DNA of 64,000 nucleotides from Alcanivoracaceae bacterium (GTDB lineage Bacteria > Pseudomonadota > Gammaproteobacteria > Xanthomonadales > Marinicellaceae), in contig JADGEI010000001.1 in the NCBI GenBank assembly GCA_016744455.1, positions 326,504-390,503 of the forward strand, in the 5' to 3' direction. The notes under the pieces are model-generated. The model was not told where the DNA came from and made no database searches. It saw nothing but the letters and a program-made list of their open reading frames with translations. This document shows positions 8,153 to 50,070 of the stretch, piece by piece (positions within the stretch are counted from its first letter, which is position 1; each line of letters starts with the position of its first letter). A program made the position numbers and the translations under genes.

Positions 8153-8231
8153 ATAAAATTATCCATGATTAAGTAAAAGTTAATAGCTAACTAATGAATA
8201 TAGGCTTGTTATTGTAATATATGTTAGAACA

Positions 8232-8279
8232 TATTAGTAGAGAGTTTTGAACAACTCTCTACTAATAAAATTTTATTAG
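8232..8279. repeat. Overlapping perfect inverted repeats between thyA and the HD-GYP gene
   Basis: A perfect 15-bp stem (arms 8232-8246 and 8253-8267) has a 6-base loop. Its right arm overlaps an 18-bp perfect palindrome, CTAATAAAATTTTATTAG, at 8262-8279. The two structures are mutually exclusive because they share CTAATA. No U-tract follows the long stem on the minus strand, where the upstream HD-GYP transcript would end, so it is not a textbook terminator. It may act as a terminator or processing hairpin for that transcript. Confidence 0.5.
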
Positions 8280-8325
8280 AGTTTTATTGTAGAACTTACG
8301 TAAGCAAGAGGTGGTTTTTATAAAA

Positions 8326-9633: not shown

Positions 9634-9773
9634 TAGAATACACGCTTACAGTTATTAATCATAGCCGTCATTATATATTAAAAACTGTTAAATTTGTGTG
9701 ATGATGTTCATGTTTTTCAAACAAAAACTGAAAAGATTGCTACGTAGGGAAGGTTTTAGTTGTACTTTAATTG

Positions 9774-9802
9774 TTAATGCCCAGAATTTTCATGGGCATT
9801 AA
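9774..9802 (-). terminator. Hairpin downstream of rpsT
   Basis: A perfect 10-bp stem (arms 9774-9783 and 9793-9802) has a 9-base loop. It lies 22 bases past the rpsT stop. The trailing U-tract on the minus strand is weak, so it may be a terminator of modest strength or a 3'-protecting hairpin. Confidence 0.65.
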
Positions 9803-9823
9803 AATATAATTTTCACGTTTCTT

Positions 9824-10087
9824 TTAAGACATAGCTTTAATTTTGCTGTTTAGGCGACTTTTGTGTCTTGCAATTTTATTTTTATGAAAAATGCCCTTAC
9901 TTGCAACTTTGTCAATGACAGGAACCATGACATTGTAAAGTTCTTGTGCTTGCTTTTTGTCGCCAGCTTCAATTGCATTAATTACATTTTTAATTGTTGT
10001 TCTTGCTTCAGAACGAAAACTCATGTTGTGAATTCGTCTTTTTGCAGCTTGTCTTACACGTTTTCTAGCAGATGCTGAATTTGCCAT
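9824..10087 (-). CDS. rpsT: 30S ribosomal protein S20
   Basis: This is an 87-residue, lysine/arginine-rich helical protein that binds 16S rRNA early in 30S assembly. It begins MANSASARKRVRQAAKRR, a typical S20 N-terminus after which Met is removed. The length equals that of E. coli S20. It is transcribed alone and divergently from murJ, the usual rpsT-murJ arrangement of gammaproteobacteria. A hairpin follows at 9774-9802. Confidence 0.98.
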   Translation of the reverse strand: MANSASARKRVRQAAKRRIHNMSFRSEARTTIKNVINAIEAGDKKQAQELYNVMVPVIDKVASKGIFHKNKIARHKSRLNSKIKAMS

Positions 10088-10288
10088 TTGTTTCTCCGTT
10101 ATCGCGGTATTAAATTTAAGCCGCGCATTCTCACATCAATTATATAATGTGTCAATAATTTAAACGCTGAAACTGTTTAATTTAACACTATTTTTTATTT
10201 TTACGTAAAAATAGTCTTTTTATCCGTAATACATGGGATTTATCACTGATTGTTTATAGAATTCTCCTGTTTTACTATTTTTATATTA

Positions 10289-11845
10289 ATGAGCCTATTT
10301 AAATCAACTGCTATTGTTAGTGTCTTTACTTTCTTATCTAGAATTAGTGGATTTGTTCGTGATCAAGTTACCGCGATATTTTTTGGTGTTTCTGTTTGGA
10401 CTGACGCTTTTTTTGTGGTTTTTAGAATACCAAATTTCATGCGGAGATTATTTGCTGAAGGCTCTTTTTCCATGGCGTTTGTTCCTGTTTTAAATGAGAT
10501 AAAAGCCAATGAGTCTAGAGAGGTTTTGAAAGATTTTATTGATAGAGTAGCCGGTACACTTATTTCGATTGTTCTAGTAGTGTGGATGCTTATGGAAATA
10601 TTTGCTCCTCAAGTTCTTTGGTTAAGTGCTCCTTCATGGGCTGGTTCCAAGCCAGAGGTGTTCGCAGGAAGTGTGGAAATGCTGCGTTATACTTTATTTT
10701 ATTTCCCATTTATTGTTTTGGTCGCCTTTGCAGGTGGGATTTTAAACACCCATAAAAAATTTGCAATTCCAGCTGCTACTCCTATCTTGTTGAATGTTGC
10801 GTTAATTGCTTGTGTTTTCTTTTTGAAGGATAATTTTGAAATAAGGGAAAAATCTTTAGCAATAGGTGTATTGGTCGCTGGAATGTTACAGCTAGCAGTA
10901 CAAGTTCCAGCTCTTTTAAGATTAGGGTTGTTCCCTAATTTTAAGTTTGGGTTTCAAGACAGGAAAGTTAAAAAGGTTATGAAATTAATGGTGCCAACTT
11001 TATTTGGCTCTTCTGTTGCACAAATTAATGTCTTAATTGATACTATCATTGCCACGTGGTTGGTTTCAGGCAGCGTATCTTATTTGTATTTTTCAGAAAG
11101 GCTATTAGAATTTCCATTGGGGGTTTTTGCGATAGCTATTTCTACCGTTATTTTACCAACTTTATCTAGGCAATTTGCAACAGGCGACCAAAAATCATTT
11201 GCTAAAACCATGAAGTGGGCACTTAGTATAGGTTTTTTAATTGCTATTCCCGCTGCATGTGGACTGGCTGTCATGGCTTCTGAGATTATTACCACTTTAT
11301 TCCAATATGGTAAGTTTGACAGCACATCTACCTATTTAACCAGTTTAAGTCTAGTTGCCTATATGCTTGCATTACCAGCTTTTATTTTGAATAAAATATT
11401 GTTGCCAGCATACTATTCTAGAAAAGATACTAAAACGCCTGTAAAAATAGGCATTGTATCTATGCTTTCAAATATTGCGTTTAACTTTATAATCGTTTGG
11501 TTGCTTTGGTATTTTGACTTGTTACCCTTACATGTTGGCTTGGCTTTAGCGAGTGCTTTGTCTGGTTGGATGCAAACTTTTATGTTGTATTCAGGGTTGC
11601 GAAAAAACAAAATTATTCCAGCTTCAGTAATTCAATGGTCGGTTGTATTTAAGATAGTTCTTGCCAGCTTATTAATGTCATTATCAATATTAATCGTGTT
11701 AAACAACTTAGGCCAATGGCAAGAACTATCTTGGTATTGGCGTCTTTCAAGACTAATTGTCTTTATAACCTTTGGTGCTTCATTGTATTTTATATCATTA
11801 AGGCTTATGGGAATTAATTTTAAAAAACTCATGGTGTTAAATTGA
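10289..11845 (+). CDS. murJ: MurJ, lipid II flippase
   Basis: This 518-residue polytopic inner-membrane protein of the MOP superfamily moves lipid II across the membrane for peptidoglycan synthesis. The start is placed at the ATG at 10289 (MSLFKSTAIVSVFTFLSRISG), which aligns with the E. coli MurJ N-terminus. A start 39 bases upstream would add a non-conserved leader. About 14 hydrophobic helices are visible, with the conserved SRISGFVRDQV motif at about 17-27. The stop overlaps the ribF TTG start (TTGA), so translation is coupled. It appears complete. Confidence 0.95.
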   Translation: MSLFKSTAIVSVFTFLSRISGFVRDQVTAIFFGVSVWTDAFFVVFRIPNFMRRLFAEGSFSMAFVPVLNEIKANESREVLKDFIDRVAGTLISIVLVVWMLMEIFAPQVLWLSAPSWAGSKPEVFAGSVEMLRYTLFYFPFIVLVAFAGGILNTHKKFAIPAATPILLNVALIACVFFLKDNFEIREKSLAIGVLVAGMLQLAVQVPALLRLGLFPNFKFGFQDRKVKKVMKLMVPTLFGSSVAQINVLIDTIIATWLVSGSVSYLYFSERLLEFPLGVFAIAISTVILPTLSRQFATGDQKSFAKTMKWALSIGFLIAIPAACGLAVMASEIITTLFQYGKFDSTSTYLTSLSLVAYMLALPAFILNKILLPAYYSRKDTKTPVKIGIVSMLSNIAFNFIIVWLLWYFDLLPLHVGLALASALSGWMQTFMLYSGLRKNKIIPASVIQWSVVFKIVLASLLMSLSILIVLNNLGQWQELSWYWRLSRLIVFITFGASLYFISLRLMGINFKKLMVLN

Positions 11846-12780
11846 AATTTTCTCGTTATCCACAGAATACACCATTAAAAAAGGCATCTGTAATAACCAT
11901 AGGTAATTTTGATGGTGTGCATGTAGGTCATCAAGCGTTAATTAAGCAGGTCACAGAATATGCATTAACTCATAAATTGCAATCAGTTGTGGTAACCATG
12001 GATCCTTTGGCTGCTCAATATTTTGCAGGTAGGGAAAATGTTGCATTGTTGACACCTTTTAAGTGTAAATATAAGTTGTTGAAGAAATTAGCAATAGATG
12101 TTTTGTGTATGTTAAATTTCAATCACAAACTTGCTGAATATACTCCTGAAGATTTTATTCAAAAAATCTTAATTGATGGATTGCAAGCAAAACATATTAT
12201 CATTGGTGATGACTTTAGATTTGGTAAAAATAGAGCCGGCGATATCAAAACATTAAAGTCTTACTGTGAAAATTTTGGCATTACAATAAGTCACATAGAT
12301 TCGGTAATTTGCAATAATGAGAGAGTTGCTAGTTCAAAAATTCGTAAGCATATTATTAACAGTGATTTCAAAACTGTCACAGCTAACCTTGGTAGGCATT
12401 ATTCTATTGCTGGTAAAGTAAGCAAAGGCCAACAACTTGGTAGAGAACTGGGTTATCCAACAATAAATATTAAGCTTAAGAATAGAAAAGAATCCGTAAA
12501 TGGAATTTATTGTGTGAAAGTTTTGTTTGAAAACAACAAAAAATACATTGGAGCTGCCAGTATTGGTACACGCCCGACTGTAAATGGGGTGGAAAAACTC
12601 TTAGAAGTACACCTTTTGGGATTTAATAAACAAGTTTATGGGCAAAATGTTGAAGTTTTGTTTTACCATAAAATAAGAAATGAAGTAAAATTCGAAAACT
12701 TAACTGAATTAAAACAATACATAAAAGACGATGTTATAAAAACACGTCAATTTTTTAAAGAGACTAATAGTGAGCACTAA
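11842..12780 (+). CDS. ribF: Bifunctional riboflavin kinase / FAD synthetase
   Basis: This 312-residue enzyme makes FMN from riboflavin and then FAD. The N-terminal nucleotidyltransferase domain (about 1-180) has the ITIGNFDGVHVGH motif. The C-terminal riboflavin kinase domain (about 185-310) has GRELGYPTINI and IGTRPTVNG. The start is TTG at 11842, overlapping the murJ stop. The next in-frame methionines would remove the conserved GNFDGVH region, so TTG is favoured. It sits in the standard murJ-ribF-ileS-lspA-ispH order and overlaps ileS by 11 bp. Confidence 0.94.
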   Translation: MKFSRYPQNTPLKKASVITIGNFDGVHVGHQALIKQVTEYALTHKLQSVVVTMDPLAAQYFAGRENVALLTPFKCKYKLLKKLAIDVLCMLNFNHKLAEYTPEDFIQKILIDGLQAKHIIIGDDFRFGKNRAGDIKTLKSYCENFGITISHIDSVICNNERVASSKIRKHIINSDFKTVTANLGRHYSIAGKVSKGQQLGRELGYPTINIKLKNRKESVNGIYCVKVLFENNKKYIGAASIGTRPTVNGVEKLLEVHLLGFNKQVYGQNVEVLFYHKIRNEVKFENLTELKQYIKDDVIKTRQFFKETNSEH

Positions 12781-15577
12781 TTACAAAGACACCTTAAATC
12801 TACCTAAAACCAAGTTTTCAATGAAAGCTGGCTTAGCACAGAAAGAACCTAACTGGTTAAAAAAATGTGATGACGAAAATTTGTATCACAAACTTCAAGA
12901 AGCAAGCATTGGTAGACCACAATTTATTTTACATGATGGTCCTCCATATGCTAACGGTTCACTACATACTGGACATGCTCTAAATAAAATTTTAAAGGAT
13001 ATTATTGTTAAATCTAAAATGATGTCTGGCTTTTCTGCGCCTTATGTTCCTGGATGGGACTGTCATGGTTTGCCGATTGAGATTCAGGTTGAAAAAAAAC
13101 ATGGTAAAGTTGGGCAAAAAATTGATGCCAAGACCTTTCGTCAAAAATGTAGAGAATATGCCAGCCGTCAAGTTGAAATTCAAAAAAGTGAGTTTAAACG
13201 CCTTGGTGTCATTGGAGAATGGGATAACCCTTATTTAACTAAAGATTTCAAGTATGAAGCAGACATGATTCGTGCATTGGGTAAAATTGTTGAAAATGGG
13301 CACATTGAAAAAGGGGTAAAACCAGTTAATTGGTGTTTTGATTGTGGTTCAGCATTGGCTGAGGCTGAAATTGAATACCAAGATAAGATTTCCCCAGCAA
13401 TTGATGTAGCTTACACTGCAGTTGATGCTGATAAATTAATTCAAGTTTTTGGTTTTAAAACAAGTGAAAAACCATTAGCTATTCCTATATGGACTACAAC
13501 TCCTTGGACTTTGCCGGCTTCTATGGCTGTGTCATTACATGCTGAATTAGAGTACTCGTTGGTACAAGGCCATGAGGATTATTTATTAGTAGTTGCAACA
13601 GAGTTGGTTAATGATGTCAGTGCAAGGTATGGTTTTGAACCTCAAATTTTAGCAACTGTTGTAGGTGAGAAATTAGAGGGAATAAAGCTACAACATCCTT
13701 TTTACGAAGATAGGCATGTTCCTGTTATTCTTGGAGAACATGTAACTGTTGAGGCAGGTACTGGTGCCGTTCACACAGCTCCAGGTCACGGTGTTGAAGA
13801 TTTTAATGTCGGTAAACAATATGGGATTGAAATCTATAATCCAATGGGTGGTAATGGTGTTTATTTAGATAGCACTCCAATATTTGGTGGGCAATATATC
13901 TGGAAAGCCAACAAAACAATTGTGGAACTATTAAAAGAAAATAATGTATTGCTAAGTTTAGAAAATATTAATCATTCTTACCCTCATTGTTGGAGGCACA
14001 AATCACCAACGGCATTCAGAACCACACCACAATGGTTTGTTAGTATGGATAAGCATGATTTACGTAAAAATGCATTGGATGAAATTCGCAATGTTAAGTG
14101 GGTTCCGGATTGGGGTGAAAAACGCATTTATTCGATGATTGAAAACCGCCCTGAATGGTGTATTTCTAGGCAAAGGACATGGGGCGTGCCTATCACTTTA
14201 TTTACTCATAAAGAAACTGGTGAATTGCACCCAAATACGTTAGCTGTTATGGAAAAAGTTGCTTTATTGGTTGAAGAATCAGGCATTGATGCCTGGTTTG
14301 ATATTGACGCTAGCGATCTAATAGCAGATGCCAATGTTTACGATAAAACCACAGATGTTTTAGATGTATGGTTTGATTCAGGTGTCAGTCATTTTGCAGT
14401 ATTATCTGCACGAGATTACTTACGCGAACCTGCAGATTTATATCTGGAAGGCTCAGATCAACACCGAGGTTGGTTTCATTCGTCATTATTAACCGGAGTG
14501 GCTATCAATGATCATGCACCATATAAACAAGTTTTAACACATGGTTATGTGGTTGGTTCAGATGGTAGAAAAATGTCCAAATCACTGGGTAATTTTATCT
14601 CACTTAAACAAATTGTGGATACTTATGGTGCAGATGTCTTGCGTTTGTGGTGTGCATCAGCTGATTATACAAAAGAGATCACAGTATCTGATGAAATACT
14701 GAAACGTGTTTCAGATGGTTATAGACGTATACGTAATACAGCACGTTTCCTAATAGGCAACTTGAATGAATTTGATGCAAGTACTCAATTGTTAGATGTT
14801 GAAGAGTGTACATTCCTCGACCAATGGGCAATTCGAAAAGCTGGAAAATTACAAGATGAAATTATTGACGATTTTAATAAATATCAATTCCATAATATAT
14901 ACCAAAAGATTAGTTCATTTTGCTCCCAAGATATGGGTGCATTTTATTTGGATGTGCTAAAGGATAGATTGTACACGGCTAAGATTGATTCAAAAGCACG
15001 TAGGTCAGCACAAACTGCTATGCATCATATTTTACAATCGTTGATTCGTTGGATGGCGCCAATCATAACATACACGGCTGATGAAATTTGGAAATTGCTT
15101 GGTAATGAAGAGAATATATTATTCGAACAATGGTATAACGTTCCGGTTGTAGCTAATAATGATGAATGGAGCGAAAGCAATTGGGGTTATGTTCAAGAAA
15201 TTAGGGATGCAAACACAAAACTTTTAGAGCAAATGCGCATTAATGGCGATATTGGCTCATCACTTGATGCATCGGTTGAAATATTTTTAGATGATCAATT
15301 ATTCACTCTACTAAAAAGTATTAACGAAGAATTGCGTTTTGTATTAATTACCTCTCAAGCGGAGTTAAAACCATTAAGTGAGAAACCAAATAATGCGATT
15401 AAATGTGACCTTGAAAACGATACAGTTTATATTGTAGCAGGTGTCGCCAAAGGTGAAAAATGCATCAGATGTTGGCATAAGCGTGAAGAAGTAGGTCAAG
15501 ACAGCAAACATCCAGAGCTATGTGGTCGTTGTATAACTAATATTGATGGAATAGGTGAAACGAGAAAGTATGCCTAA
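12770..15577 (+). CDS. ileS: Isoleucyl-tRNA synthetase
   Basis: This 935-residue class I synthetase (E. coli 938) charges tRNA-Ile. The HIGH-type motif appears in GSLHTGHAL (about 63-71), the CP1 editing domain spans about 190-390, and KMSKS is at GRKMSKSLG (about 600). The C-terminal zinc ribbon CIRCW...CGRC is present, as in the E. coli-type bacterial enzyme. The start is GTG at 12770, inside the 3' end of ribF. The end overlaps lspA. No internal damage is seen. Confidence 0.97.
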   Translation: MSTNYKDTLNLPKTKFSMKAGLAQKEPNWLKKCDDENLYHKLQEASIGRPQFILHDGPPYANGSLHTGHALNKILKDIIVKSKMMSGFSAPYVPGWDCHGLPIEIQVEKKHGKVGQKIDAKTFRQKCREYASRQVEIQKSEFKRLGVIGEWDNPYLTKDFKYEADMIRALGKIVENGHIEKGVKPVNWCFDCGSALAEAEIEYQDKISPAIDVAYTAVDADKLIQVFGFKTSEKPLAIPIWTTTPWTLPASMAVSLHAELEYSLVQGHEDYLLVVATELVNDVSARYGFEPQILATVVGEKLEGIKLQHPFYEDRHVPVILGEHVTVEAGTGAVHTAPGHGVEDFNVGKQYGIEIYNPMGGNGVYLDSTPIFGGQYIWKANKTIVELLKENNVLLSLENINHSYPHCWRHKSPTAFRTTPQWFVSMDKHDLRKNALDEIRNVKWVPDWGEKRIYSMIENRPEWCISRQRTWGVPITLFTHKETGELHPNTLAVMEKVALLVEESGIDAWFDIDASDLIADANVYDKTTDVLDVWFDSGVSHFAVLSARDYLREPADLYLEGSDQHRGWFHSSLLTGVAINDHAPYKQVLTHGYVVGSDGRKMSKSLGNFISLKQIVDTYGADVLRLWCASADYTKEITVSDEILKRVSDGYRRIRNTARFLIGNLNEFDASTQLLDVEECTFLDQWAIRKAGKLQDEIIDDFNKYQFHNIYQKISSFCSQDMGAFYLDVLKDRLYTAKIDSKARRSAQTAMHHILQSLIRWMAPIITYTADEIWKLLGNEENILFEQWYNVPVVANNDEWSESNWGYVQEIRDANTKLLEQMRINGDIGSSLDASVEIFLDDQLFTLLKSINEELRFVLITSQAELKPLSEKPNNAIKCDLENDTVYIVAGVAKGEKCIRCWHKREEVGQDSKHPELCGRCITNIDGIGETRKYA

Positions 15578-16085
15578 TTTAAATAACAGTATATCTACTA
15601 AATCGGGTTTATGGTGGTTACCAATAAGTGTTATTGTTTTTATTTTGGATCAATGGACCAAGGTTATTGCTACAGAATCATTAAAAATGTACGAGGCAAT
15701 TGAAGTCAATACCTATTTAAATTGGACCTTAATGCATAACAAAGGCATGGCGTTCAGTTTATTGGCGAATCAAGGTGGTTGGCAACGCTGGGGTATTAGT
15801 ATCGTCGCTATTCTTGTTGTGGTTTGGTTATTGGTTTGGTTAAAGAATAGCGAGTTTCAATCCAAATTTCTAAATATTGGTTTAGTATTAGTAATTGGTG
15901 GCGCGATAGGTAATACCTATGATCGTTTGAACCTTGGTTATGTAATTGATTTTATCGAAGCACATTATAACGACAACTATTGGCCTGCCTTTAATATTGC
16001 TGATACAGCTATCAGTATTGGTGCTTTTTTTCTGATACTTGATTTAATATTCAATAAAGGTAATAAGGAAACTAATGAGACTTAG
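15570..16085 (+). CDS. lspA: Lipoprotein signal peptidase (signal peptidase II)
   Basis: This 171-residue inner-membrane aspartic protease removes signal peptides from diacylglyceryl-modified prolipoproteins. There are four membrane helices. The catalytic aspartates are in [15 protein letters not shown] and [11 protein letters not shown]. The ATG at 15570 is chosen over a GTG at 15555 because it has a GAGAAAG purine stretch just upstream and gives a normal N-terminus. It overlaps ileS by 8 bp and ispH by 11 bp. Its products in this window would include the lipoproteins at 25885 and 48054. Confidence 0.94.
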
Positions 16086-17019
16086 GCTTGCAAATCCACG
16101 AGGATTTTGTGCAGGTGTTGATCGCGCCATAGAAATTGTTAATCGTGCCATAGAAATATTTGGCTCACCTATCTATGTTAAGCATGAAGTAGTACATAAT
16201 CGTTTTGTGGTAAATAACCTTAAAGCGAAAGGTGCGATATTTGTTGAAGAATTGACGGAAGTCCCAGATGATAATATTGTCATTTTTTCTGCTCATGGTG
16301 TCTCTCAGCAAGTGCGTAAAACAGCTAATATTCGTGGTTTAAAGGTCTTTGATGCCACGTGTCCTTTGGTAACTAAAGTGCACATGGAAGTCATACGTTA
16401 TTGCAAAGGCGGATTCAATCTTATTCTTATTGGTCATGAAGGGCATCCAGAAGTTGATGGAACAATAGGGCAGTGGGATAATAAAATTGGTCAAGGAGAG
16501 GTATACATAGTTGAGTCTGTAGAGGATGTTAGAAAGCTTCAACTGCAAAAAGACTTGAAACTTGCTTATGTTTCACAAACAACACTCTCACTAGATGACA
16601 CGGCTGACATCATTGCAGAGCTAAAAACAATTTATCCAGCTATTCAAGGACCTAAGCACGATGATATCTGTTACGCGACACAAAATCGCCAACATGCAGT
16701 TAAAGATTTAGCTCAAGATTGTGACTTGGTTTTAGTCGTAGGTAGTGTTAATAGTTCTAACTCTAATCGCTTGCATGAACTGGCAGAAAGGCAAGGCGTC
16801 AAAGCCTACCTAATTGACGATGCTGACTGCATTGATATTACATGGTTTAATGGAGTCAATTCAATTGGCGTAACTGCTGGTGCATCGGCACCTGAAAAAT
16901 TAGTCAAAGATGTTATTGCATTTATACAACAACATGCTCAAAACGTAGAGCTCCAAGAGTTGCACGGAGAACCTGAACATATGGTTTTTGCTTTACCAAA
17001 AGAATTAAGGATCTCCTAG
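16075..17019 (+). CDS. ispH: 4-hydroxy-3-methylbut-2-enyl diphosphate reductase
   Basis: This 314-residue iron-sulfur enzyme does the last step of the MEP isoprenoid pathway, making IPP and DMAPP. The three cluster-binding cysteines are Cys12 ([10 protein letters not shown]), Cys96 (DATCPLV) and Cys199 ([10 protein letters not shown]). The catalytic glutamate region is present. It overlaps lspA by 11 bp as the last gene of the murJ run. No clear terminator follows. Its cluster supply links it functionally to the suf genes at 20 kb. Confidence 0.97.
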
Positions 17020-17479
17020 GTTCTTGTGAATTTTTATTCTCTCTTTTCTTTACTCTTAACATTTGTGTAGTATAGCTAACTGAACCTATATTTTTCATAT
17101 TAAAATATTTATCTCTCTCGATTTGTAAATTCCCTGTCAATTGTTGACATAAATACATAGTAATTTTTCACAAATTTTATTTATGGCTTAGCCAGTCGAA
17201 TCACATCGTTAACCGACTCAAGCAATTCATGGGACGCTACCTACTCAGGCAGAAACTGTCTTATAAGCACACAAAGGTCATTAGCACCAACACTATATGA
17301 ATACAACTAAAAATACAAAGATGACTAAAAAGTACAAATATTTGCAACATTTGTTATACCAATTTTATTTAAATTGTGGCTTGATAATAAGTGGTTCCAA
17401 AGTAATAGTTGTTATAAATAATTATGTTGAATTATTTTGGAAAAGAGTTTTTTGTTTTTAAAAATATGAGGTTTAAATC
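17020..17479. other. 460-bp non-coding gap between ispH and the prepilin-like gene
   Basis: No supported coding region or stable hairpin was found. A GAGG at 17468-17471 precedes the start at 17480. AT-rich TATAAA-like stretches near 17410-17420 may hold a promoter. No sigma-54 -24/-12 element, common for pilins, was recognised. Confidence 0.45.
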
Positions 17480-18190
17480 ATGAATGTTAAAAGAACAAAA
17501 TTGTCAAACCAAACAGTTTTTACTTTGGTTGAAATGGCAATTGTATTAGTCATTATTGGGCTAATTTTAGGAGCTGTCTCAATCGGTAAAGACCTGCAGC
17601 GTAATGCAAGTTATCAAAAAGTGAGTCAATCATTCATCCAAGGTTGGGCGTTAGCTTACCAAAGTTATTTTAATCGTGTGAATCTGGTTGTAGCTGATAA
17701 TCCATTAGCTCCAACATTAATGGTGAATCAAAACCTTGGAGAAGTTTGCGGTGGTTCGACTACGACCCTTTATTCATATTTTGATGCAGCCGGAGTACGC
17801 ATGCCAGCAGGTAGGGCAGAAGGGTCTGAAGATAAGTATGTCAACCTAGATAGCAATGGTAACCCTCAGCAAATAGATATTTGTTTTGATAATGTTCCAT
17901 GGTCTGTGGATGGTTTAACTGCTGGATCATATATGTTGCGAAATAAAAATGTTATGGTTATCAAAGGTCTAACGCCTGATTTAGCTCGTTTATTGGATAA
18001 TTCAGTAGATGGAATTGCAGATGCACGATTTGGGTTTTTTAGAGAGAACACTCGTGCCAATATTACCGCCAATGGTAATTCACTTGTTTGGAGCAAAACT
18101 AATAATCAAGAATTTGCCAATGCCAGTATTTCAGGGCGAGATGAATCACAAGTTCCTGTTTTGACAGCTTATTATCTAATGCCTGAATAG
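17480..18190 (+). CDS. Type IV prepilin-like protein lacking the -1 glycine
   Basis: This 236-residue protein has a short basic leader (residues 1-13) followed by FTLVEMAIVLVIIGLILGAV, a classic type III (prepilin) helix with Phe+1 and Glu+5. Processing by PilD normally needs Gly at -1. Here that residue is Val13 (codon GTT at 17516-17518, one base from GGT). The C-terminal globular part is not a family I recognise. It has two cysteines, in GEVCGGS and IDICFDN. Possible roles are a minor pilin, a pseudopilin or a surface protein anchored unprocessed. It stands alone, with no pil genes beside it, convergent with the next gene. Confidence 0.8.
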   Translation: MNVKRTKLSNQTVFTLVEMAIVLVIIGLILGAVSIGKDLQRNASYQKVSQSFIQGWALAYQSYFNRVNLVVADNPLAPTLMVNQNLGEVCGGSTTTLYSYFDAAGVRMPAGRAEGSEDKYVNLDSNGNPQQIDICFDNVPWSVDGLTAGSYMLRNKNVMVIKGLTPDLARLLDNSVDGIADARFGFFRENTRANITANGNSLVWSKTNNQEFANASISGRDESQVPVLTAYYLMPE

Positions 18191-18233
18191 GCAGGTTCTA
18201 TTACAGCCTGTTATGTAAGGCTATTTACTGTTA

Positions 18234-19892
18234 TTAGGTCCAAACCAACTTGTTTTTACCATTGTTCTTACCGTAATACATACGCTCATCTGCAAATTTT
18301 AACGCTTTTTCAATAAGTGGTTGTTCAGAATTACTGACCATTCCAAGTGTGGCAGTAACTTCAAGTTGTTGACTCACTTTATTCCAATCATAAATTTGGA
18401 TAGTTTTACGAATTCGATTGAATATAGATTGTGCGATTTCATCATTATTATCTTTTATTAGAATAATAAATTCTTCACCACCATATCGGAAAAACGTATC
18501 ATGCTCTCTAATGTTATCTTTAATAATAGTAGAAATAATTTGTAATACACTGTCCCCAATGGCATGTGAAAAATTATCATTGATTTTTTTGAAGTCATCA
18601 ATATCCAGCATGGCTAAATGATTACTTTGTTTTTGAGTGCTGTTTTTTTGCCAATTGTCAGCTAATATTCTGTCTAATTGTCGTCGATTTCCAGCACCTG
18701 TTAGGTGATCGTGCATAGAGTCATGTTCTAATTGGCAGGCTTGTTTTTGAAAATGCTCTGATTTGTTTCTTGAGTTTTCTAGTTCAATGGATAGTTTATT
18801 TACTTCTACTTGATTGAGTATGTTAGTTTTATGTGTTTCTTTGTACAAATCTTGGAAAAGCTTCTGATAGTAATACGCTTTTTTATACTCTTTTTTTGTG
18901 GCATTTATACTCGCATTAAGTTCGTAAACACTGGCAAGAAGTGAGCGAAAACCATTGATTTTACAAATTCTAGTGGCCTCATGAATTTGCAATAACGCAT
19001 CATTCGATAATTGATTTTGATTGATTTTGGCTAGATCAATAAGGCATCGGACGATGTATTCTTGTTCTTGTTGTTTCCTAAAGGCCTCTAATGCTTTTTC
19101 AAGTAATTTTTTGGCGTTAATGAAATTCCTTTTTTTGAACTCTATATGTCCTAGGCCTGCTCGTGCTTGAGCAACTTGCGCAAAGTTATTTTCAGTTGTT
19201 GCTAAATTCATGGCTTTTTCAAAGGACTGTTTAGCTTCAGTTAGCTGCCCTTTTTTAGATAATATTTGTGCAATTCCATTGAGAATAGTGGCTTGTGCAT
19301 TTAAATCGCTTCCATCATCAATGATATCTAATGCCATTTGATTATACTTTTGTGCCGTATCGTAATCTTCAACTTGTTGGTAAATGTTAGCTAAATTATG
19401 TAATGTATAAGTAGGTAATAAAGGGTTGTTGAGTTCATATTTTATTGCTAAACTTCGGTGATAATATAAAACAGCACGTGGTAAATCACCTATTTTTTCA
19501 TGAACTATTCCAATATTGTTTAAAACAATATGCTCGGTATTTGGATCAGGGTGTTTTTTAAATAGAGTGAGTAAACCTTCTAGCTTGCTTTTAGCCGCTG
19601 CTAAATCGCCTTTAGCTAAACAAATACTGGCTTGTGCATTTTGGCACTTAATTAACCCTTGATGATTTTGGAGCCTAGCATAGATGGATAAGGCCTGAGA
19701 ATAAAGCTTACCGGATTCTAAATAGTTACTTTGGCGAAAGTAAATTTCAGCCATGGTTTTATAGATTTCTGCGAGAGGTAATTGAGTAGCTTTGTCATTT
19801 GTTTTTGCTGTTTTTTGTAAAACAGCAAGTCGTGCTTCTAACACGGTAAGAGTCGAATAACTTCCTGTTGATTTATTAGTAACTTCTTTCAT
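18234..19892 (-). CDS. TPR-domain diguanylate cyclase (GGDEF)
   Basis: This 552-residue protein should make cyclic di-GMP. The N-terminal 350 residues are tandem tetratricopeptide repeats (for example LPLAEIYKTMAEIYFRQSNYLESG), followed by a coiled segment. The C-terminal GGDEF domain (about 385-552) has DHLTGAGNRRQL, an intact GGEEF active site and an RxxD inhibitory site (REHD, five residues before GGEEF). It should therefore be active and subject to product inhibition. No transmembrane segment is visible, so it is probably cytoplasmic and controlled by a protein partner bound to the TPRs. The HD-GYP and PilZ proteins in this window are possible parts of the same signalling network. Confidence 0.92.
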   Translation of the reverse strand: MKEVTNKSTGSYSTLTVLEARLAVLQKTAKTNDKATQLPLAEIYKTMAEIYFRQSNYLESGKLYSQALSIYARLQNHQGLIKCQNAQASICLAKGDLAAAKSKLEGLLTLFKKHPDPNTEHIVLNNIGIVHEKIGDLPRAVLYYHRSLAIKYELNNPLLPTYTLHNLANIYQQVEDYDTAQKYNQMALDIIDDGSDLNAQATILNGIAQILSKKGQLTEAKQSFEKAMNLATTENNFAQVAQARAGLGHIEFKKRNFINAKKLLEKALEAFRKQQEQEYIVRCLIDLAKINQNQLSNDALLQIHEATRICKINGFRSLLASVYELNASINATKKEYKKAYYYQKLFQDLYKETHKTNILNQVEVNKLSIELENSRNKSEHFQKQACQLEHDSMHDHLTGAGNRRQLDRILADNWQKNSTQKQSNHLAMLDIDDFKKINDNFSHAIGDSVLQIISTIIKDNIREHDTFFRYGGEEFIILIKDNNDEIAQSIFNRIRKTIQIYDWNKVSQQLEVTATLGMVSNSEQPLIEKALKFADERMYYGKNNGKNKLVWT

Positions 19893-20008
19893 AAATTTAC
19901 TTTTCGTTTTATTTCGATGAGAAATCAGAAGAATTATAACAGATATTCACAGACTATACATGTTTAAACTCAATGATACACTTTGAGCTATTTAATATCA
20001 TATTAAAT

Positions 20009-42169: not shown

Positions 42170-42504
42170 TTTTTTTATTTTGGGTGCTTTAATATTAATA
42201 AAACATGCCTTGTTTTAATTAATTATGCCCTTCTAACAAGTGATTTACCCTGTGAATACAGATGCTATAGGCATAAAGCCTCCATAAATTAAGTGACAAG
42301 CGTCACATATTTTAAACTTGTGTGAATTATTGGTATGACTTTGTATTTTCAATTGTTACAGTGTGATTTAGTAAATACCTATATTTAACTGGAAAAATCA
42401 TGAGATTAATAAAAAACATAGCAATTTGTAGGAAATTTGCCATAGTATTGTCTATATTCAACGTGTATAATTAACCAATATTACCAAATTGATGGGGAAA
42501 ATCG
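42170..42504. other. 335-bp regulatory gap upstream of the autotransporter gene
   Basis: No coding region is supported. The gap holds a small perfect hairpin GTGAC-AAGC-GTCAC (42293-42306), a TATAAT at 42466-42471 and a GGGG Shine-Dalgarno sequence at 42494-42497. No good terminator for the truA-folC operon was seen. Confidence 0.5.
42466..42471 (+). promoter_or_regulatory. Candidate -10 box for the autotransporter gene
   Basis: TATAAT lies 39 bases before the ATG at 42505, leaving room for a short leader containing the GGGG ribosome-binding site. No clear -35 hexamer is visible at standard spacing. Confidence 0.4.
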
Positions 42505-45500
42505 ATGAAAAACAATAGTATTTCAAAAAGTTTATTAACACTTTTACTGATATTTTTAACAATTAATACATACGCTATTGATCTTGAAATAGTAAATCCG
42601 ACTATTAATCCTGATCCGATAGCTGCTTCTATTCCATACAATATAAGTTTTGTTATTGATAATCTCGCTAGTGCTACTACACCAGAAGATGCACAGTTAA
42701 TTGTAGTTTCAATAACTGGTTTTGATCCAACAAACGTTGTAAGTGTAGCGGGGTTAAATAGTTGGAATTGTAATTATGACATAATGACAACTACCATCGA
42801 TTGTGATAAGTTTTTTATAAATGGTGAGTTCCCTGCAGGAACGACACATAATTTTGACGTACAAATTCAAACTGGAACATCAGTAGTCGTACCAGATTCT
42901 TTTAATATTGATATGGTAGATGATATATTAGGAGATGAGACATTTCCAAATGTGGTAATAGTTAATACAACAACTGGTCCGGCGCCAGTACTTGTGCTTG
43001 TAGACCAGGCTGATCCAGTGCCTGTAACAGAAGGTCAAGAAGTAAATACAATCGTTGATTTCCAAATTGGCAATACAAGTGTCACAGCAGCAGATAAAAC
43101 GCTAATTGACCTAACTGTGAATTTTGATGATCTAAACTTTTTCTTTGATGAAATATCTACCAACCCACTGTTACCTACTGGTTGGTTCTGTACAGGTAGT
43201 GCTACACCAGTTGTTTGTACCTTTTCAGGTGTTGGTACTTTACCTAATGGGGGAACGATTGATTTTCCTTTACATTTTAATATTAACCAATCTCCAACAC
43301 CAGCACCAGCTGGAAATTATGCTTTTACAGGTTTTGTCCATTTGTCCGGGATGGCAGAAGATTCTTTGGTTGAAACGCTTGTTATTAATGCACCTTTAGC
43401 TCCAAATCTAATTGTTGATAATTCAGCGCCTACACCAACACCGCTAGATCTAGAATTGCATCATGCAGTCGTAACACCACCTCAGTTAATTAATTATAGA
43501 TTACGAAATACAGGAGGTGATATAATTAATCCTGGAACTGGAACAACAGTTGAATTTTCATTAGCACTTGATGATATGAATATTCAAGTAAATATCCCTA
43601 GCCCCCCAGCAGGTTGGATATGTTCTGATCTTATGTCAATTTATCAATGCATTAATATGGATGCAGTTTATGCATCCGGACAATTTACTGATTTCACTTT
43701 TGAAGTGGCACCACTTCCAACTACTCCTGCAGGCACTTACCTTTTGAGTGCTCTGACCTCGGCATTAGCTGCACCTGTTGCTAATATATTTGATACCAAT
43801 CTTAATGTAATTAATCCTGATATTATTCTAGATAAAACATTAGAGTCAGGTATTTTTAATCACCCTGTTGTAGGAGATGCTGCAGTAAATGGTGACATAG
43901 TTACCTATAAGGTTTTGGTTAATAATATTACTAATGGATCCGCTCCAACTAATAGCATTACAATACAAGATGTAGTCCCTCCACAGCTTTCAATTATTAA
44001 TGTCATTGGACTAGGTAATTTTGGTGGTGTCGGGGCTTGTACAACTATTGGGCAAACGATTACGTGTACTAACCTTACAGGGATCTTACCGCCAAATGTC
44101 CCAGGAGATGATGGTTTTGAAATCATTGCAACTGTAAATGGAACGGTAGGCGATGTCATATTAAATACGGCTCAAATAATTGCAGTAGATTTTGATTCAA
44201 CGCCAAATGTTTTGGTAAGTGCTGATACTAGTTTTGAAATTGTACCCGCACAAACAGATTTGTCTATTATAAAGTCATCAGAAACATTGGCAGGAGTTTC
44301 TGCACCAAGCTTTGAAGTAGGAGAAAGCTTTAATTATGTATTGTCAGTGACTAATAACGGTATTGACGCTGCAATAGGTGAGGTTGAAATATCGGATATA
44401 TTACCACTTGAAGTAGACTTTGTCCCTGGTGATTTAAACTCGCCAACAGGCTGGAACTGTACTGCTGTTATGCAGACTGGTTTTCTTGTTTCATGCGTTA
44501 ATACAACTATTTTTTCAGGAGCGAATGGTACTGTTGATATAGTCATACCAGTAACTGCAGGAACAAATATTGGCATAGTTTCAAATACTGCTGGTGTTGA
44601 TGTCGTATTTGGTTCACAAATAGAAGACAGTACGATAACAAATAATAGTAACACAAACAACATCACCATTACACCTGCTGGTCTTCCAGTATCTATATCT
44701 AAATCCGTATTTTTTAGCGGAGGTTCTAAAAGGAGTGTAAATGGAGTGAATCCAGAATTTGAAATTGGAGATTTGGTAACCTATAGAATTATTGTAGAAA
44801 ATTCATCAAATGGTGAAATTGTTGATTTAGTTGTATCAGATATTTTAGATACAAATTTTTTAGATGCCAGTAATGTAACATTCAACATTCTACAATCAGT
44901 AGCAGAATTCAATTGTATATTTGATAATGTAAATGAAATTAGTTGTACCAACCTAGGTATCTTACCTTTTAATCAAGGAAGTTTCTTTGTATTGGAAATA
45001 CAAATACCAACACTTGAGGCTGGTTCAAATGTCAGCAATATAGCGACTGCATCTAGTTCAATTGACGGTTTTAATATTGATTCTGCTCCAGCTCTAATTA
45101 ATATTTTAGGTGATCCTACGACACCCCCACCATTAACTCAAACAAGTATTGCTATTGAAAAAAATGCATTGGTTAATGGGGAAATAGTAACGGTAATAAA
45201 TAAAGGTGCTACTTTTGATTATGAAATTATTGTTAGTAACACAGGAAATGGGGATTTAGGTAGTTTGTCAATTATTGATAATATGCCCGATGGAGTTATG
45301 GTAAATAGTGTTGATGGACCCATTGGTCTAAGTTGTAATAATCAAGGCCAAACTTATAATTGTAATTACCAAGAAAGTTTCCCGATCGGTACAAATATTA
45401 CTATTGTATATAACGTCACAGACATAAGTGATGCCTCAATTACACAACTTACCAATACAGCTTCTGCCATTGCCTCTAATGCTGCTACTCAAACAGTAAG

Positions 45501-47967
45501 TAATAGTATTGAGTTTACTTCAAATGACTTAACAGTAAATGTTTCTCAAAGCCCAAATATTGTTTTTCCGGGCAGTAGTTTTGAGATGATAATTGATGTT
45601 AATAATCTATCTTCAGATGATTTAACGGGTGTAACCGTAACAAACGTATTGCCTAATGGGTTTAGTTACTCTACACAAAACAAAGCAAGCACATGTCAAT
45701 CAACAGGGCAAATGTTAACTTGTACTATTACATCATTAACTGCTGGATCAACTGAGTCTATTGTAGTTGCCGTAAATACAGATAGTACTATTGCTCCTAG
45801 TAATAGTTATCAAAATACAACTACAATTATGGGTGGTTTTCCAGATTTTACTCATGTCTCTAATCTTGTTATAACTGATCCAAACCAAGGTGGTGTTTTA
45901 AGCTATCAAATAGAAATTAATGATGATATAGACCCTGTGAATCAAGGCTCTCCATTTAATTATACGGCAACATTAATGAATAATGGAACCACGCCTATTC
46001 AATTTATACATGTTGACTTTGAGATTCCATCTGAGTTAACGGTTAATAATTTTATGACAGATGCGATGGACTGTAGTGCAGTAACTACAGGGCTTTCATG
46101 TGTAAATTCAGTTGGTGCAAATGCTGGATCCTCAGCATTAATAATCCAACCAGGCCAACAAAAAGATGTTGTTGTCATTAATGTACAATCTGATTCTTAT
46201 TTTGGTGATGTTGAGACTACAGTGATTGCCTCTAGTAGTGATGGCAACTCAGAAACAGATACTGAAATGACAACTATACTTGAAAACGTAGTTATATTAA
46301 ATGAAGCTGATTTAGCAATCTCACTTACAAATGAGTCAACAGCAAGGCAGGGCTTCTCAACAAGTTTTGATATTATGGTTGAAAATAAAGGACCGAATTC
46401 TGCTGACATACCTGAAGTAACATTAAACGTTGCTGGCTTAATTGAAAATTTAGTTGCCGCTGATAATAGCCATTGGAATTGTCAGATAAATGGATCATCT
46501 ATTCATTGTAGTTTTAATGAAGATCATATGTTAAATGGTCATATGTCAACAATCAATGTTACAGCAAATTTAGCGCAAGTCTCGATTAATGCAGAGAACT
46601 TAATACTTGATGCTAGTATTGACTCATCTACATTGGACCCAATATCAGGCAATAATTTTGTAAATGCATCAATAAATGTTAGTGGAACACCTTCAGAAGG
46701 TGAAATATTGTCGGCATTACAAACAGCATTAGCTGGAATAGCTAATCAACAAACCTTACGAGCAATTGAAAATGTAGCAAGTTACTGTGAAAGAAGTTAC
46801 TTTACGGCTATAGAAGGCATGTGTGTTGATTTGTTTCAAGCAGCACAATCAGGAGAAGGCGAGACGATTAACAACGTAATGGAGCAAATTACACCAAATG
46901 AAGTCATAGGCCAGTCTACATCAGTTTCTGAAATCGCAAGAGCTCAGTTTAGAAATATTGGTTCAAGGTTATCACAACTACGAGGTGGCGGTGGTTCTGG
47001 TTTCAGTTCAGCCGGTTTAAATGCGAGTTATGGTAGTGGCAGTATTCCATTGGGGATGTTATCTTATTTAAACAAAGATGCCGATGAAGTAAAAGATGTG
47101 AATAATGATTTTATATCGCCTTGGGGGTTCTTTGTTAATGGAACAATTTCAATGGGTGAACGGGACGCAACCGGGAGAGAATTAGGGTTTGATTTCGACT
47201 CTTATGGCCTGACTGCTGGTGTTGATTACAGAATAGATGCTAAGAAAGTTGTTGGTATAGCAGTAGGTTATGCAAATTTTGATTCTGAAATAGAAGGTAA
47301 AGCTGAAATGGGTTCCACCGGCATCACTTTAACTGGCTATGGTTCATTCTATGTTAATGACAATTTCTATGTTGACGCAAGAATAAGTGCTGGTAGACCA
47401 GACTTCGATCAGAAACGCAATATAAATTTTACTTTAGGTGGTAACACTATTGATAGAGTAGCAGCGGGTGATACTACTGCTAACCAATACTCTTTTGCAA
47501 TGAGTGCGGGTTATCATTTCAATAAAAACTCTTGGAATATTACCCCAAATGCATCAATAAGATACGTTAAAACTAACATTGATGGTTTTACAGAAACTGG
47601 TGCAGGTGATTTTAACTTTGAGTATTCGGAACAAGATTTAGAGTCTATGGTTTGGTCTGCTGGAGTCAGGGTATCAAAAGCAGTAAGTTTAAAAAATGGT
47701 GTTATAACACCACAGTTTGACTTTGATTATAACTATGAAAGTCTAAATGATGGAAATGATATAGAAGCAAGGTTTATTATGGCTCCAACAGATGAAATAT
47801 TTATTTTAGAAACAGACTCTCCTGATAGAACTTATGGTTCTGCTGGTCTTGGTTTGGTCTACGTTTCTTCAAATGGAAAACAGGCCTATATTAATTACAG
47901 AAGTGTACTTGGACTCGAAGGATTCTCACGAGGTACAATTAACGTGGGAGCACGATTTGAATTTTAA
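42505..47967 (+). CDS. Giant autotransporter-like surface protein with ten DUF11-type repeats
   Basis: This 1820-residue protein has a signal peptide (about 1-24, ending NTYA). Ten immunoglobulin-like DUF11-type repeats span about 25-1390. A helical linker (about 1395-1530) with a glycine-rich GGGGSG turn follows. The C-terminal part (about 1535-1820) looks like an autotransporter beta-barrel and ends in INVGARFEF, with the terminal Phe expected of outer-membrane proteins. Each repeat has one cysteine pair, C-X8 to X11-C, with first cysteines at 89, 229, 373, 512, 652, 804, 944, 1064, 1190 and 1326. This predicts one disulfide per domain. No protease motif was seen in the passenger. An adhesin or stalk is likely. 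The next gene may be functionally linked. Confidence 0.88.
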   Translation: MKNNSISKSLLTLLLIFLTINTYAIDLEIVNPTINPDPIAASIPYNISFVIDNLASATTPEDAQLIVVSITGFDPTNVVSVAGLNSWNCNYDIMTTTIDCDKFFINGEFPAGTTHNFDVQIQTGTSVVVPDSFNIDMVDDILGDETFPNVVIVNTTTGPAPVLVLVDQADPVPVTEGQEVNTIVDFQIGNTSVTAADKTLIDLTVNFDDLNFFFDEISTNPLLPTGWFCTGSATPVVCTFSGVGTLPNGGTIDFPLHFNINQSPTPAPAGNYAFTGFVHLSGMAEDSLVETLVINAPLAPNLIVDNSAPTPTPLDLELHHAVVTPPQLINYRLRNTGGDIINPGTGTTVEFSLALDDMNIQVNIPSPPAGWICSDLMSIYQCINMDAVYASGQFTDFTFEVAPLPTTPAGTYLLSALTSALAAPVANIFDTNLNVINPDIILDKTLESGIFNHPVVGDAAVNGDIVTYKVLVNNITNGSAPTNSITIQDVVPPQLSIINVIGLGNFGGVGACTTIGQTITCTNLTGILPPNVPGDDGFEIIATVNGTVGDVILNTAQIIAVDFDSTPNVLVSADTSFEIVPAQTDLSIIKSSETLAGVSAPSFEVGESFNYVLSVTNNGIDAAIGEVEISDILPLEVDFVPGDLNSPTGWNCTAVMQTGFLVSCVNTTIFSGANGTVDIVIPVTAGTNIGIVSNTAGVDVVFGSQIEDSTITNNSNTNNITITPAGLPVSISKSVFFSGGSKRSVNGVNPEFEIGDLVTYRIIVENSSNGEIVDLVVSDILDTNFLDASNVTFNILQSVAEFNCIFDNVNEISCTNLGILPFNQGSFFVLEIQIPTLEAGSNVSNIATASSSIDGFNIDSAPALINILGDPTTPPPLTQTSIAIEKNALVNGEIVTVINKGATFDYEIIVSNTGNGDLGSLSIIDNMPDGVMVNSVDGPIGLSCNNQGQTYNCNYQESFPIGTNITIVYNVTDISDASITQLTNTASAIASNAATQTVSNSIEFTSNDLTVNVSQSPNIVFPGSSFEMIIDVNNLSSDDLTGVTVTNVLPNGFSYSTQNKASTCQSTGQMLTCTITSLTAGSTESIVVAVNTDSTIAPSNSYQNTTTIMGGFPDFTHVSNLVITDPNQGGVLSYQIEINDDIDPVNQGSPFNYTATLMNNGTTPIQFIHVDFEIPSELTVNNFMTDAMDCSAVTTGLSCVNSVGANAGSSALIIQPGQQKDVVVINVQSDSYFGDVETTVIASSSDGNSETDTEMTTILENVVILNEADLAISLTNESTARQGFSTSFDIMVENKGPNSADIPEVTLNVAGLIENLVAADNSHWNCQINGSSIHCSFNEDHMLNGHMSTINVTANLAQVSINAENLILDASIDSSTLDPISGNNFVNASINVSGTPSEGEILSALQTALAGIANQQTLRAIENVASYCERSYFTAIEGMCVDLFQAAQSGEGETINNVMEQITPNEVIGQSTSVSEIARAQFRNIGSRLSQLRGGGGSGFSSAGLNASYGSGSIPLGMLSYLNKDADEVKDVNNDFISPWGFFVNGTISMGERDATGRELGFDFDSYGLTAGVDYRIDAKKVVGIAVGYANFDSEIEGKAEMGSTGITLTGYGSFYVNDNFYVDARISAGRPDFDQKRNINFTLGGNTIDRVAAGDTTANQYSFAMSAGYHFNKNSWNITPNASIRYVKTNIDGFTETGAGDFNFEYSEQDLESMVWSAGVRVSKAVSLKNGVITPQFDFDYNYESLNDGNDIEARFIMAPTDEIFILETDSPDRTYGSAGLGLVYVSSNGKQAYINYRSVLGLEGFSRGTINVGARFEF

Positions 47968-48043
47968 TCCAAGTTAATTCGGAATCGGTAATGTAATTCT
48001 ATTATCAATATCGGTTCCAAATTTGGGTTTAACCTTAACAAAT

Positions 48044-48048
48044 GGGGA
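48044..48048 (+). promoter_or_regulatory. Ribosome-binding site fixing the caspase-lipoprotein start
   Basis: GGGGA lies five bases before the ATG at 48054. The upstream in-frame ATG at 48042 overlaps this site and has none of its own. The context ATGGGGAA also precedes the autotransporter ATG. Confidence 0.75.
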
Positions 48049-48053
48049 ATAAC

Positions 48054-50021
48054 ATGAAATACAATAACAACATCAATTATAAACTATCAATAATCAGCTT
48101 TATCAGCTTGCTTGTTATAGGTTGTGGAGCACCTAATGTAAAAACCGTTGAAAAAGGGCAGATTACTCCAGATCAACTTTATATCGTGGATTGTTTACTT
48201 CCACCACAAGTGCGACAACTTGGACAGAACTATACCTTTATGGCACCGAGAAAGCCTGCTCGTTTAAGTGCTAGAGATTGTTCTGTACGTGGTGGCGAAT
48301 ATGTTGCTTATGATAAAGCAAGTTTTTCCAGTGTTGCAAAAATGTGGCTTCCAGAGGCTGAAGGTGGAAATGCAAAAGCACAATCTTATTTAGGTGAATT
48401 GTATGAAAAAGGTTTAGGTGGTACACCAGACTATAAATCAGCAGCTAAGTGGTATCAGAAAGCAGTGGATCAAGGTTATACGCCTGCTATGTTAAATCTT
48501 GGAAATTTATATGAGCAAGGCTTAGGAGTAGTAAAAAACCCAAATAAAGCCATTAATCTCTATCGATTGGCATCGGGTGTACAAGATTCTAAATTAGAAA
48601 TAGTAACTGAACAAAATTTACGTGAACGCCGTGCAAAAGAACACCAGCGAATTAAACTGTTGAAAGAAGTTTCAACTCTTCGTAATCAGTTAACAGACAT
48701 GAAAAATGATTATGATTTAACAAAAAAATACGTAGAGCAGTCAAATGTTAAGCTGAAGGATTTACAAGCAAAACTTAAAAATAATACTGGCAACACGTCA
48801 ATTTTAGATAAAATTGCTGAGCTAAAAGGTGAAATTAATAAGAAAAACAATGAACTTGCCAAACAAAACAAGGTGATTAACACCTTGGTAACTAAAGTAA
48901 CTGAAGTAAATGAACAAAATGACATTGCTGAAATTAGCACAGGCTCAGGTATTAATATCCTAAACCCTGATGTGTTCTTGACTCGTGGTATAAATACCAT
49001 GGCAATGCCTGCAGATGCGGTTAAATTTAGATTTATGGCAGGAGTAGATGAGCCTGAAGGTGTAGTAGCACTAAAAGTCAACAATCAAGATTACACCAAA
49101 ACTATGACAGATGGAGGTATATTTGAAAGTACAATAAGCCTTAAAAATGGAGACACACCTGTTAATATTGTTGCGGTTAGAAAAAACGGAACAAGAAATA
49201 TAGAGCAGTTTGTCGCCATTAGGAATAAATTTGAAGCAGTAAAAGCCAGGAAATTTGATGAGCTATTTACACGGCGCTTTAGAGATGATTTAGGTGATTA
49301 CTATGCTTTAGTTATTGGGAATAATAATTACACGCATTTAGATAAATTATCTACAGCTGTACAAGATGCAACTACAATTGCTGATACTTTAAAAAATAAA
49401 TATGGCTACAAAGTTAAGTTATTAACAAATGCAAACTTATCAACCATGTTAACAGCACTCAGCGAGTACGAAAGTAAGCTTGGAAAATATGATAACCTTA
49501 TGGTCTACTATGCAGGTCATGGTTTAATTGATGAACAAAGTAAGGAGGGTTACTGGATACCTACTGATGCTTCATTGACAGATAAATCAACTTGGATTCC
49601 GAATAAAGAAATTAGTAATTTTATGGGGCAAATGAAAGCTAAACACGTTATGGTGGTAGCAGATTCTTGTTATTCAGGTACATTATCAGGCTCATCAATT
49701 TCACCACTCCCTGAAGATGTAGATAATGAAGATATACTCTTTACATCACGTGTAAAAGCCAGAACAGTTCTAACTTCTGGGGGCTTACAACCTATATTAG
49801 ATAGTGGTGGTAATGGACATTCAATATTTGCATCAGCATTCTTAGATACCTTAAATGAAAATGATGGTGTTATGGAAGGTTATAGGTTATATGAAGCCAT
49901 GAGTCAGCAGGTAAGCTTACGTTCAAGCCTTGCAGGATTAAAACAAATTCCTGAGTACAGTGCAATAAAACATGCAGGTCACGAAGGAAGCGAATATTAC
50001 TTTATGCCAAGTGCTTTGTAA
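48054..50021 (+). CDS. Lipoprotein with Sel1 repeats, coiled coil and caspase-like protease domain
   Basis: This 655-residue protein has a lipoprotein signal peptide with lipobox VIGC (Cys24). Two Sel1-type repeats follow (about 98-170: AKAQSYLGELYEKGLGG, PAMLNLGNLYEQGLGV), then a long coiled coil (about 190-290) and a beta-rich segment (about 300-390). The C-terminal caspase-type (peptidase C14/p20) domain spans about 410-640. The catalytic pair appears intact: His489 in YYAGHG and Cys539 in ADSCYSG. The family cleaves after basic or acidic residues depending on subgroup; the specificity here is unknown. It lies 86 bp after the autotransporter gene, with the same Shine-Dalgarno context. It would face the periplasm or cell surface. 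Confidence 0.9.
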   Translation: MKYNNNINYKLSIISFISLLVIGCGAPNVKTVEKGQITPDQLYIVDCLLPPQVRQLGQNYTFMAPRKPARLSARDCSVRGGEYVAYDKASFSSVAKMWLPEAEGGNAKAQSYLGELYEKGLGGTPDYKSAAKWYQKAVDQGYTPAMLNLGNLYEQGLGVVKNPNKAINLYRLASGVQDSKLEIVTEQNLRERRAKEHQRIKLLKEVSTLRNQLTDMKNDYDLTKKYVEQSNVKLKDLQAKLKNNTGNTSILDKIAELKGEINKKNNELAKQNKVINTLVTKVTEVNEQNDIAEISTGSGINILNPDVFLTRGINTMAMPADAVKFRFMAGVDEPEGVVALKVNNQDYTKTMTDGGIFESTISLKNGDTPVNIVAVRKNGTRNIEQFVAIRNKFEAVKARKFDELFTRRFRDDLGDYYALVIGNNNYTHLDKLSTAVQDATTIADTLKNKYGYKVKLLTNANLSTMLTALSEYESKLGKYDNLMVYYAGHGLIDEQSKEGYWIPTDASLTDKSTWIPNKEISNFMGQMKAKHVMVVADSCYSGTLSGSSISPLPEDVDNEDILFTSRVKARTVLTSGGLQPILDSGGNGHSIFASAFLDTLNENDGVMEGYRLYEAMSQQVSLRSSLAGLKQIPEYSAIKHAGHEGSEYYFMPSAL

Positions 50022-50040: not shown

Positions 50041-50070
50041 AAAAGGTTGGGCTCTCCAACCTTTTTTTTT
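50041..50070 (+). terminator. Strong intrinsic terminator after the caspase-lipoprotein gene
   Basis: A perfect 10-bp stem (arms 50041-50050 and 50056-50065) with a GCTCT loop runs into a 9-T tract (50062-50070). It closes the autotransporter-caspase unit. Confidence 0.95.

Follow-up and report, generated by a model that had tools for sequence, protein, structure and literature searches.

This analysis concerns two adjacent genes in a 64,000-nucleotide stretch (the window) of the genome of an Alcanivoracaceae bacterium (GenBank assembly GCA_016744455.1, contig JADGEI010000001.1, positions 326,504 to 390,503 of the forward strand). The first gene (42505 to 47967, plus strand) encodes an autotransporter of 1,820 residues and the second (48054 to 50021, plus strand) an exported protein of 655 residues with Sel1 repeats and a caspase domain, the Sel1-caspase. 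Comparison of genomes supports, as well as such a comparison can, a joint function of the two proteins: the caspase family is found in 81 of 398 genomes of the order, and in 68 of the 81 (G349 included) an autotransporter of the same subfamily lies no more than 10 kb away, where chance would give at most about 2% per genome. The sequence-only reading of the window had proposed a functional link between the genes, to be judged by whether relatives keep them together. The answer is strongly positive, as their presence together is kept while gene order varies, with at least three arrangements, varied flanks and near-complete co-occurrence, and we suggest that this conservation points to a system inside the cell envelope that controls a surface protein. 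Computation here established the gene pair together with its conservation and co-occurrence, the export signals, the intact catalytic residues and the kinase linkage in relatives.

Conservation of the pair

Each protein was searched in its own genome (3.62 Mb) and in 60 relatives, which include Marinicella litoralis and metagenome-assembled genomes (MAGs) of Lysobacterales, and the gene maps of 40 loci were inspected; profiles of both proteins were searched in the 398 genomes of the order, with E ≤ 1e-60 as the cut-off for the caspase family. Every caspase-bearing member of the family has the autotransporter gene immediately upstream, though the flanking genes differ between genera. Across the order, where the autotransporter remains a neighbour of the caspase gene, linkage is seen in at least one genome in 10 of the 11 caspase-bearing families. 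The 13 unlinked caspase genomes are mostly fragmented MAGs, together with G111, G160 (30 kb apart) and family f7 (G038, G048). The autotransporter precedes the caspase in families f1, f5, f10 and f11 and in part of f12 and f9, the two genes stand head to head in f2, f4, f6 and f8, and the caspase comes first in part of f9 and f12. The flanks are unrelated among loci that have the pair in tandem, reversed or head to head, and the togetherness of the genes has therefore outlasted repeated rearrangement.

With an autotransporter threshold of 1e-55, 77 of the 398 genomes hold both proteins, 4 the caspase only, 4 the autotransporter only and 313 neither; as these genomes are related, the counts are not independent events and the p-value of the 2x2 table is only indicative. 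In the four caspase-only genomes a more divergent autotransporter adjoins the caspase, three of the four autotransporter-only genomes are just 74-84% complete, and the fourth has in-frame stops in the autotransporter match. A viral collection gave distant caspase-domain matches only and no autotransporter, and a plasmid search gave no match.

The autotransporter

The large Cys-repeat autotransporter first read from the sequence is borne out. A hydrophobic leader ending in NTYA (about residues 1-24; 42505 to 42576) is predicted by inspection to be a signal peptide. It is followed by a passenger (42577 to 46750) of about ten Ig-like repeats of the DUF11 type, within which Pfam finds six DUF11 stretches and TIGR01451 matches three times, then by a linker (46750 to 47000), and finally by a beta-barrel domain (PF03797, E = 8e-53, residues 1542-1798; 47128 to 47898) that is all-beta in the AlphaFold model. 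The C-terminal beta-domain behind a repeat passenger and a leader, the last judged by inspection, is the architecture of a type Va autotransporter. All 22 cysteines fall into close pairs (C-x8-11-C), ten in the passenger, one to each repeat, and one in the linker.

Alignments and an AlphaFold model of low confidence suggest that the linker consists of a helical segment with the Cys pair C1428/C1440, a helix that stops at R1493 and a loop rich in Gly. Only two basic residues of the linker are strongly conserved, R1488 (46966-46968) and R1493 (46981-46983). They were rejected as a caspase-specific cleavage site, being non-discriminating: autotransporters without a linked caspase keep them equally well. 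To name either as the site of a cut would be a guess.

Within the family the barrel and linker are 60-80% identical. The passengers diverge fast and range from about 680 to 1,720 residues (up to about 2,240 in the order). They also change in type, from the DUF11 repeats seen here to HYDIN/ASH-like Ig domains, Big_9/cadherin-like domains or almost nothing in other families, while barrel, linker and caspase stay constant. The passenger, in short, is interchangeable. The window genome (G000) also encodes a short autotransporter of 467 residues (G000:C40:594471-595742; L227:4343-5743) that has the same Cys linker and barrel and almost no passenger; it is kept across the family, and no caspase adjoins it.

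The Sel1-caspase

We place the start of the caspase gene at ATG 48054, giving 655 residues, because the Shine-Dalgarno sequence GGGGAA (48045-48049) falls within the extension that a mechanical open reading frame start at 48042 would add. The protein has a signal sequence with the lipobox LVIG-C (Cys25; 48054 to 48128) and a motif region, DCLLPPQVRQLG...DC..RGGEYVAYD (48180 to 48315), whose two cysteines (47 and 76) are kept in 70 of 70 homologs. There follow two Sel1 repeats (PF08238; 48372 to 48587) and a predicted coiled coil (48610 to 48920), which varies in length among homologs in the alignment and appears as long helices in a poor model. The Peptidase_C14 domain (E = 5.8e-24; 49302 to 49964) is the only C14 match in the window genome. 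Its His489 (49518-49520) and Cys539 (49668-49670) are correctly numbered in the sequence-only reading, which had also noted the Sel1 repeats.

The catalytic centre is under strong constraint. His489 and Asp537 are kept in 68 of the 68 homologs that cover them, and Cys539 in 67 of 68; in the caspase of L215 (G089) the alignment suggests that Cys539 may be Ser. The C14 domain, the H489/C539 dyad and an acidic residue (D537) before the catalytic Cys are those of the orthocaspases and metacaspases, and the profile matches solved metacaspases and MALT1. In these families an Asp ahead of the catalytic Cys is associated with cutting after Arg or Lys. The EACC1-associated caspase subfamily NF047832 is matched at 74.9 bits, below its curated cut-off of 140 (NCBIfam). 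For the caspase and the autotransporter C-terminus, the AlphaFold models (mean pLDDT 58-59) are unfit for fold search.

A hydrophobic export signal stands at the N-terminus of the homologs, and predicted export is general among them. The description of the protein as an exported lipoprotein stands as regards predicted export and, by pattern in the window protein and one congener, the lipobox, which most close homologs lack. By the strict pattern, 24 of 63 homologs have a lipobox; most of these lie outside the order, and the family contributes only the window protein and that of G002. An ordinary signal peptide is the rule among homologs from Lysobacterales. For the close relatives, lipoprotein anchoring was rejected as a family trait.

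Kinase, hydrolase and OmpA-family neighbours

A class-wide sample of 369 genomes contains strong caspase homologs (E ≤ 1e-100) in 16 families, and 25 loci were inspected. An autotransporter lies within the fetched stretch in 16 of the 25, an OmpA-family protein in four, and a Hanks-type Ser/Thr kinase in 20; most of these kinases have a single predicted transmembrane segment that follows the kinase domain. The sequence-only reading overlooked this kinase, which belongs to the set. A lipoprotein alpha/beta-hydrolase, found in 14 of the loci, resembles RapL, described in Rickettsia rickettsii as a periplasmic lipoprotein peptidase that cuts autotransporters (PMC10414592). At L198, L199, L201 and L202 the gene for a small OmpA-family protein is right beside that of the caspase.

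In the genus Marinicella a kinase of 393-404 residues adjoins the caspase at six loci, and the window genome has an ortholog 60% identical to these. Marinicella litoralis KMM 3900 has the pair and the kinase on NZ_NIHB01000002.1 (locus L068). Of 61 genomes, 32 have both kinase and caspase and six show a mismatch. This co-occurrence is supportive only, since physical linkage in some genera accounts for part of it: the genes are neighbours there, and their joint loss is less informative. The window genome has at least 18 genes for Hanks-type Ser/Thr kinases, many for a gammaproteobacterium of 3.6 Mb.

In the alignment of the hydrolase the lipobox Cys is invariant, as are an Asp, a Ser and a His spaced 89 and 94 apart; the residues shown to be essential in RapL are spaced 87 and 97, a comparison made by residue spacing. 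No NCBIfam name for the hydrolase scored above cut-off. In a search whose positive control worked, the hydrolase was found neither in the window genome nor in the 60 relatives, and it was rejected as a partner there. Inside the order it occurs in one other family, where L215 (G089; 6149-12900) gathers autotransporter, caspase, hydrolase and kinase in one cluster.

Three further loci are of note. At L236 (G199; 2-2351) an autotransporter whose match has three in-frame TGA codons adjoins a RapL-like hydrolase, and no caspase was detected in the genome. At L237 (G160; 10665-15599) the adjacent genes for autotransporter and kinase converge, at a distance of 30 kb from the caspase. At L084 (G010; 1292-19961) a single caspase gene has three autotransporters near it, two of them full and one short, with a kinase ortholog on the same contig.

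Local signals of the pair

The two genes lie on the same strand where they had first been placed, with 86 bp between the stop codon of the autotransporter and the caspase ATG. The single strong terminator reported after them was also found, as an intrinsic terminator with an 11-bp stem and a T run (50041 to 50065, plus strand), and a pattern scan gave no plus-strand terminator of comparable strength between the genes. The Shine-Dalgarno context ATGGGGAA of the autotransporter gene (42492 to 42499), described as shared by the two genes, fared less well: it occurs four times in the window against 2.2 expected, is not above chance and was rejected as evidence of co-regulation. A promoter scan showed no enrichment (37 against 38.4 expected). 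GC and GC3 of the pair are near those of the neighbouring genes, and the pair therefore looks not recently acquired.

Discussion

We suggest that the two genes encode the secreted half of a conserved module of the envelope, one that serves to display and control a large adhesin at the surface. The autotransporter would be exported; its barrel would insert in the outer membrane, and the DUF11 repeats of its passenger would be displayed. The Sel1-caspase would be exported to the periplasm, probably as an anchored lipoprotein in the window genome, where its Sel1 array may dock partners. There the caspase would most likely cleave, after Arg or Lys in the manner of a metacaspase, either the linker of the autotransporter or a partner near the barrel, leading to controlled release, trimming or recycling of the surface protein. 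The transmembrane kinase would connect the module to the cytoplasm. We infer the action of the caspase on the autotransporter, the place of the cut and the role of the kinase. The most economical mechanism appears to be that a caspase in the periplasm acts on the autotransporter or its complex and that the kinase provides the connection to the cytoplasm, and we give it a probability of about 0.5; that the caspase cuts this particular autotransporter is the leading mechanism and is unproven.

Several observations besides the relatedness of the genomes weigh against it. The linker carries no mark of the caspase-linked autotransporters, no basic residue being conserved in them alone. The kinase of the window genome is unlinked, about 82 kb from the pair on the same contig. 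Family f7 has its caspase with the kinase, and the autotransporter elsewhere. The structure models are poor. Finally, the RapL-like hydrolase of other class-level clusters could be the real autotransporter peptidase; if it does the cutting, the caspase is left with a regulatory or effector role. It is because the hydrolase may cut the autotransporter elsewhere that we put the leading mechanism no higher and take the alternative that follows seriously.

This alternative makes the caspase a signalling or effector protease and not an autotransporter peptidase. The autotransporter would sense contact or envelope stress, the kinase would relay the signal, and the caspase would cut other envelope proteins, possibly in cell death, with maturation of the autotransporter left to others such as the RapL-like hydrolase, whose Asp/Ser/His spacing is near that of RapL. 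At class level the linkage of kinase and caspase is at least as tight as that of autotransporter and caspase (20 against 16 of 25), f7 has the first two together without the third, and cell death is a frequent theme in discussions of prokaryotic caspases (PMC3501461). However, the autotransporter is the most constant neighbour of the caspase within the order, it would be unusual for an executioner to act outside the cytoplasm, and in the window genome and the 60 relatives, where no hydrolase was found, no peptidase other than the caspase turned up in the cluster. We consider this explanation unlikely, though it is the strongest of the rivals.

Rather improbable, in our view, is that the Sel1-caspase is mainly an assembly or quality-control factor, its repeats binding the autotransporter during secretion and stalled or misfolded passengers being degraded. 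Caspase-like enzymes are site-specific rather than degradative, the catalytic residues are strongly constrained, and the kinase would be left unexplained. The long coiled coil and the Sel1 repeats would nevertheless suit binding, and passengers of great length that are rich in disulfides may stall. Some autotransporters also have known helper proteins, such as the SadA-associated lipoprotein (PMC3953254) and TpgA, for which NCBIfam has a model. That the genes are chance neighbours is very improbable and is refuted to the extent that genome comparison allows: a gap of 86 bp and a common terminator are frequent for unrelated same-strand genes and the Shine-Dalgarno match is not significant, but linkage in so many genomes and families, with changing order and flanks, speaks against it.

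The functions of bacterial caspases are mostly obscure and usually discussed as intracellular cell death. Here conserved gene order links one of them with a kinase and a particular surface protein, so that both a substrate and a site of action can be tested. A proteolytic link, if confirmed, would represent a new bacterial control of surface adhesins and a role other than death for a caspase-fold protease. More tentatively, kinase, exported caspase and interchangeable autotransporter may constitute an undescribed form of gammaproteobacterial envelope signalling, in which contact or the state of the envelope triggers proteolysis by the caspase outside the cytoplasm.

Relation to known systems

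A literature search found no published account of an autotransporter-caspase module, which is weak evidence since subscription journals were largely uncovered; the autotransporter-caspase(-kinase) system, present across distantly related Gammaproteobacteria, is apparently undescribed. The nearest likeness to the role we propose for the caspase is RapL, an envelope peptidase for autotransporters that cuts a flexible loop beside the barrel (PMC10414592), and a RapL-like hydrolase itself neighbours the module in other genomes. RapL differs in being an alpha/beta-hydrolase-like Ser enzyme that processes several autotransporters, and the available part of its description reports no kinase or caspase with it (PMC10414592).

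The Sel1-caspase shares with the prokaryotic metacaspases and orthocaspases the C14 domain, the His/Cys dyad, Asp before the Cys, Sel1 as accessory domain and OmpA neighbours; in the survey, Sel1 ranks as one of the four most frequent partner domains, and 14 operons contain OmpA (PMC3501461). The operon section of the survey, in contrast, names no set of autotransporter, kinase and hydrolase (PMC3501461). The metacaspase of Xanthomonas with a polysaccharide deacetylase, present in L106/L107, is another family.

PorU and the gingipains are proteases of clan CD; they work beyond the cytoplasm, as we propose for the Sel1-caspase, and their targets are secreted surface proteins. They differ in belonging to type IX secretion, the C25 family and Bacteroidota. 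The SadA-associated lipoprotein and TpgA resemble the Sel1-caspase as envelope helpers that accompany an autotransporter (PMC3953254; NCBIfam), and differ in being non-proteases that serve trimeric autotransporters. The autotransporter itself has the signal peptide, long repeat passenger, linker and PF03797 barrel of the DUF11-repeat type Va proteins. These are not in general tied to a caspase, whereas this subfamily is.

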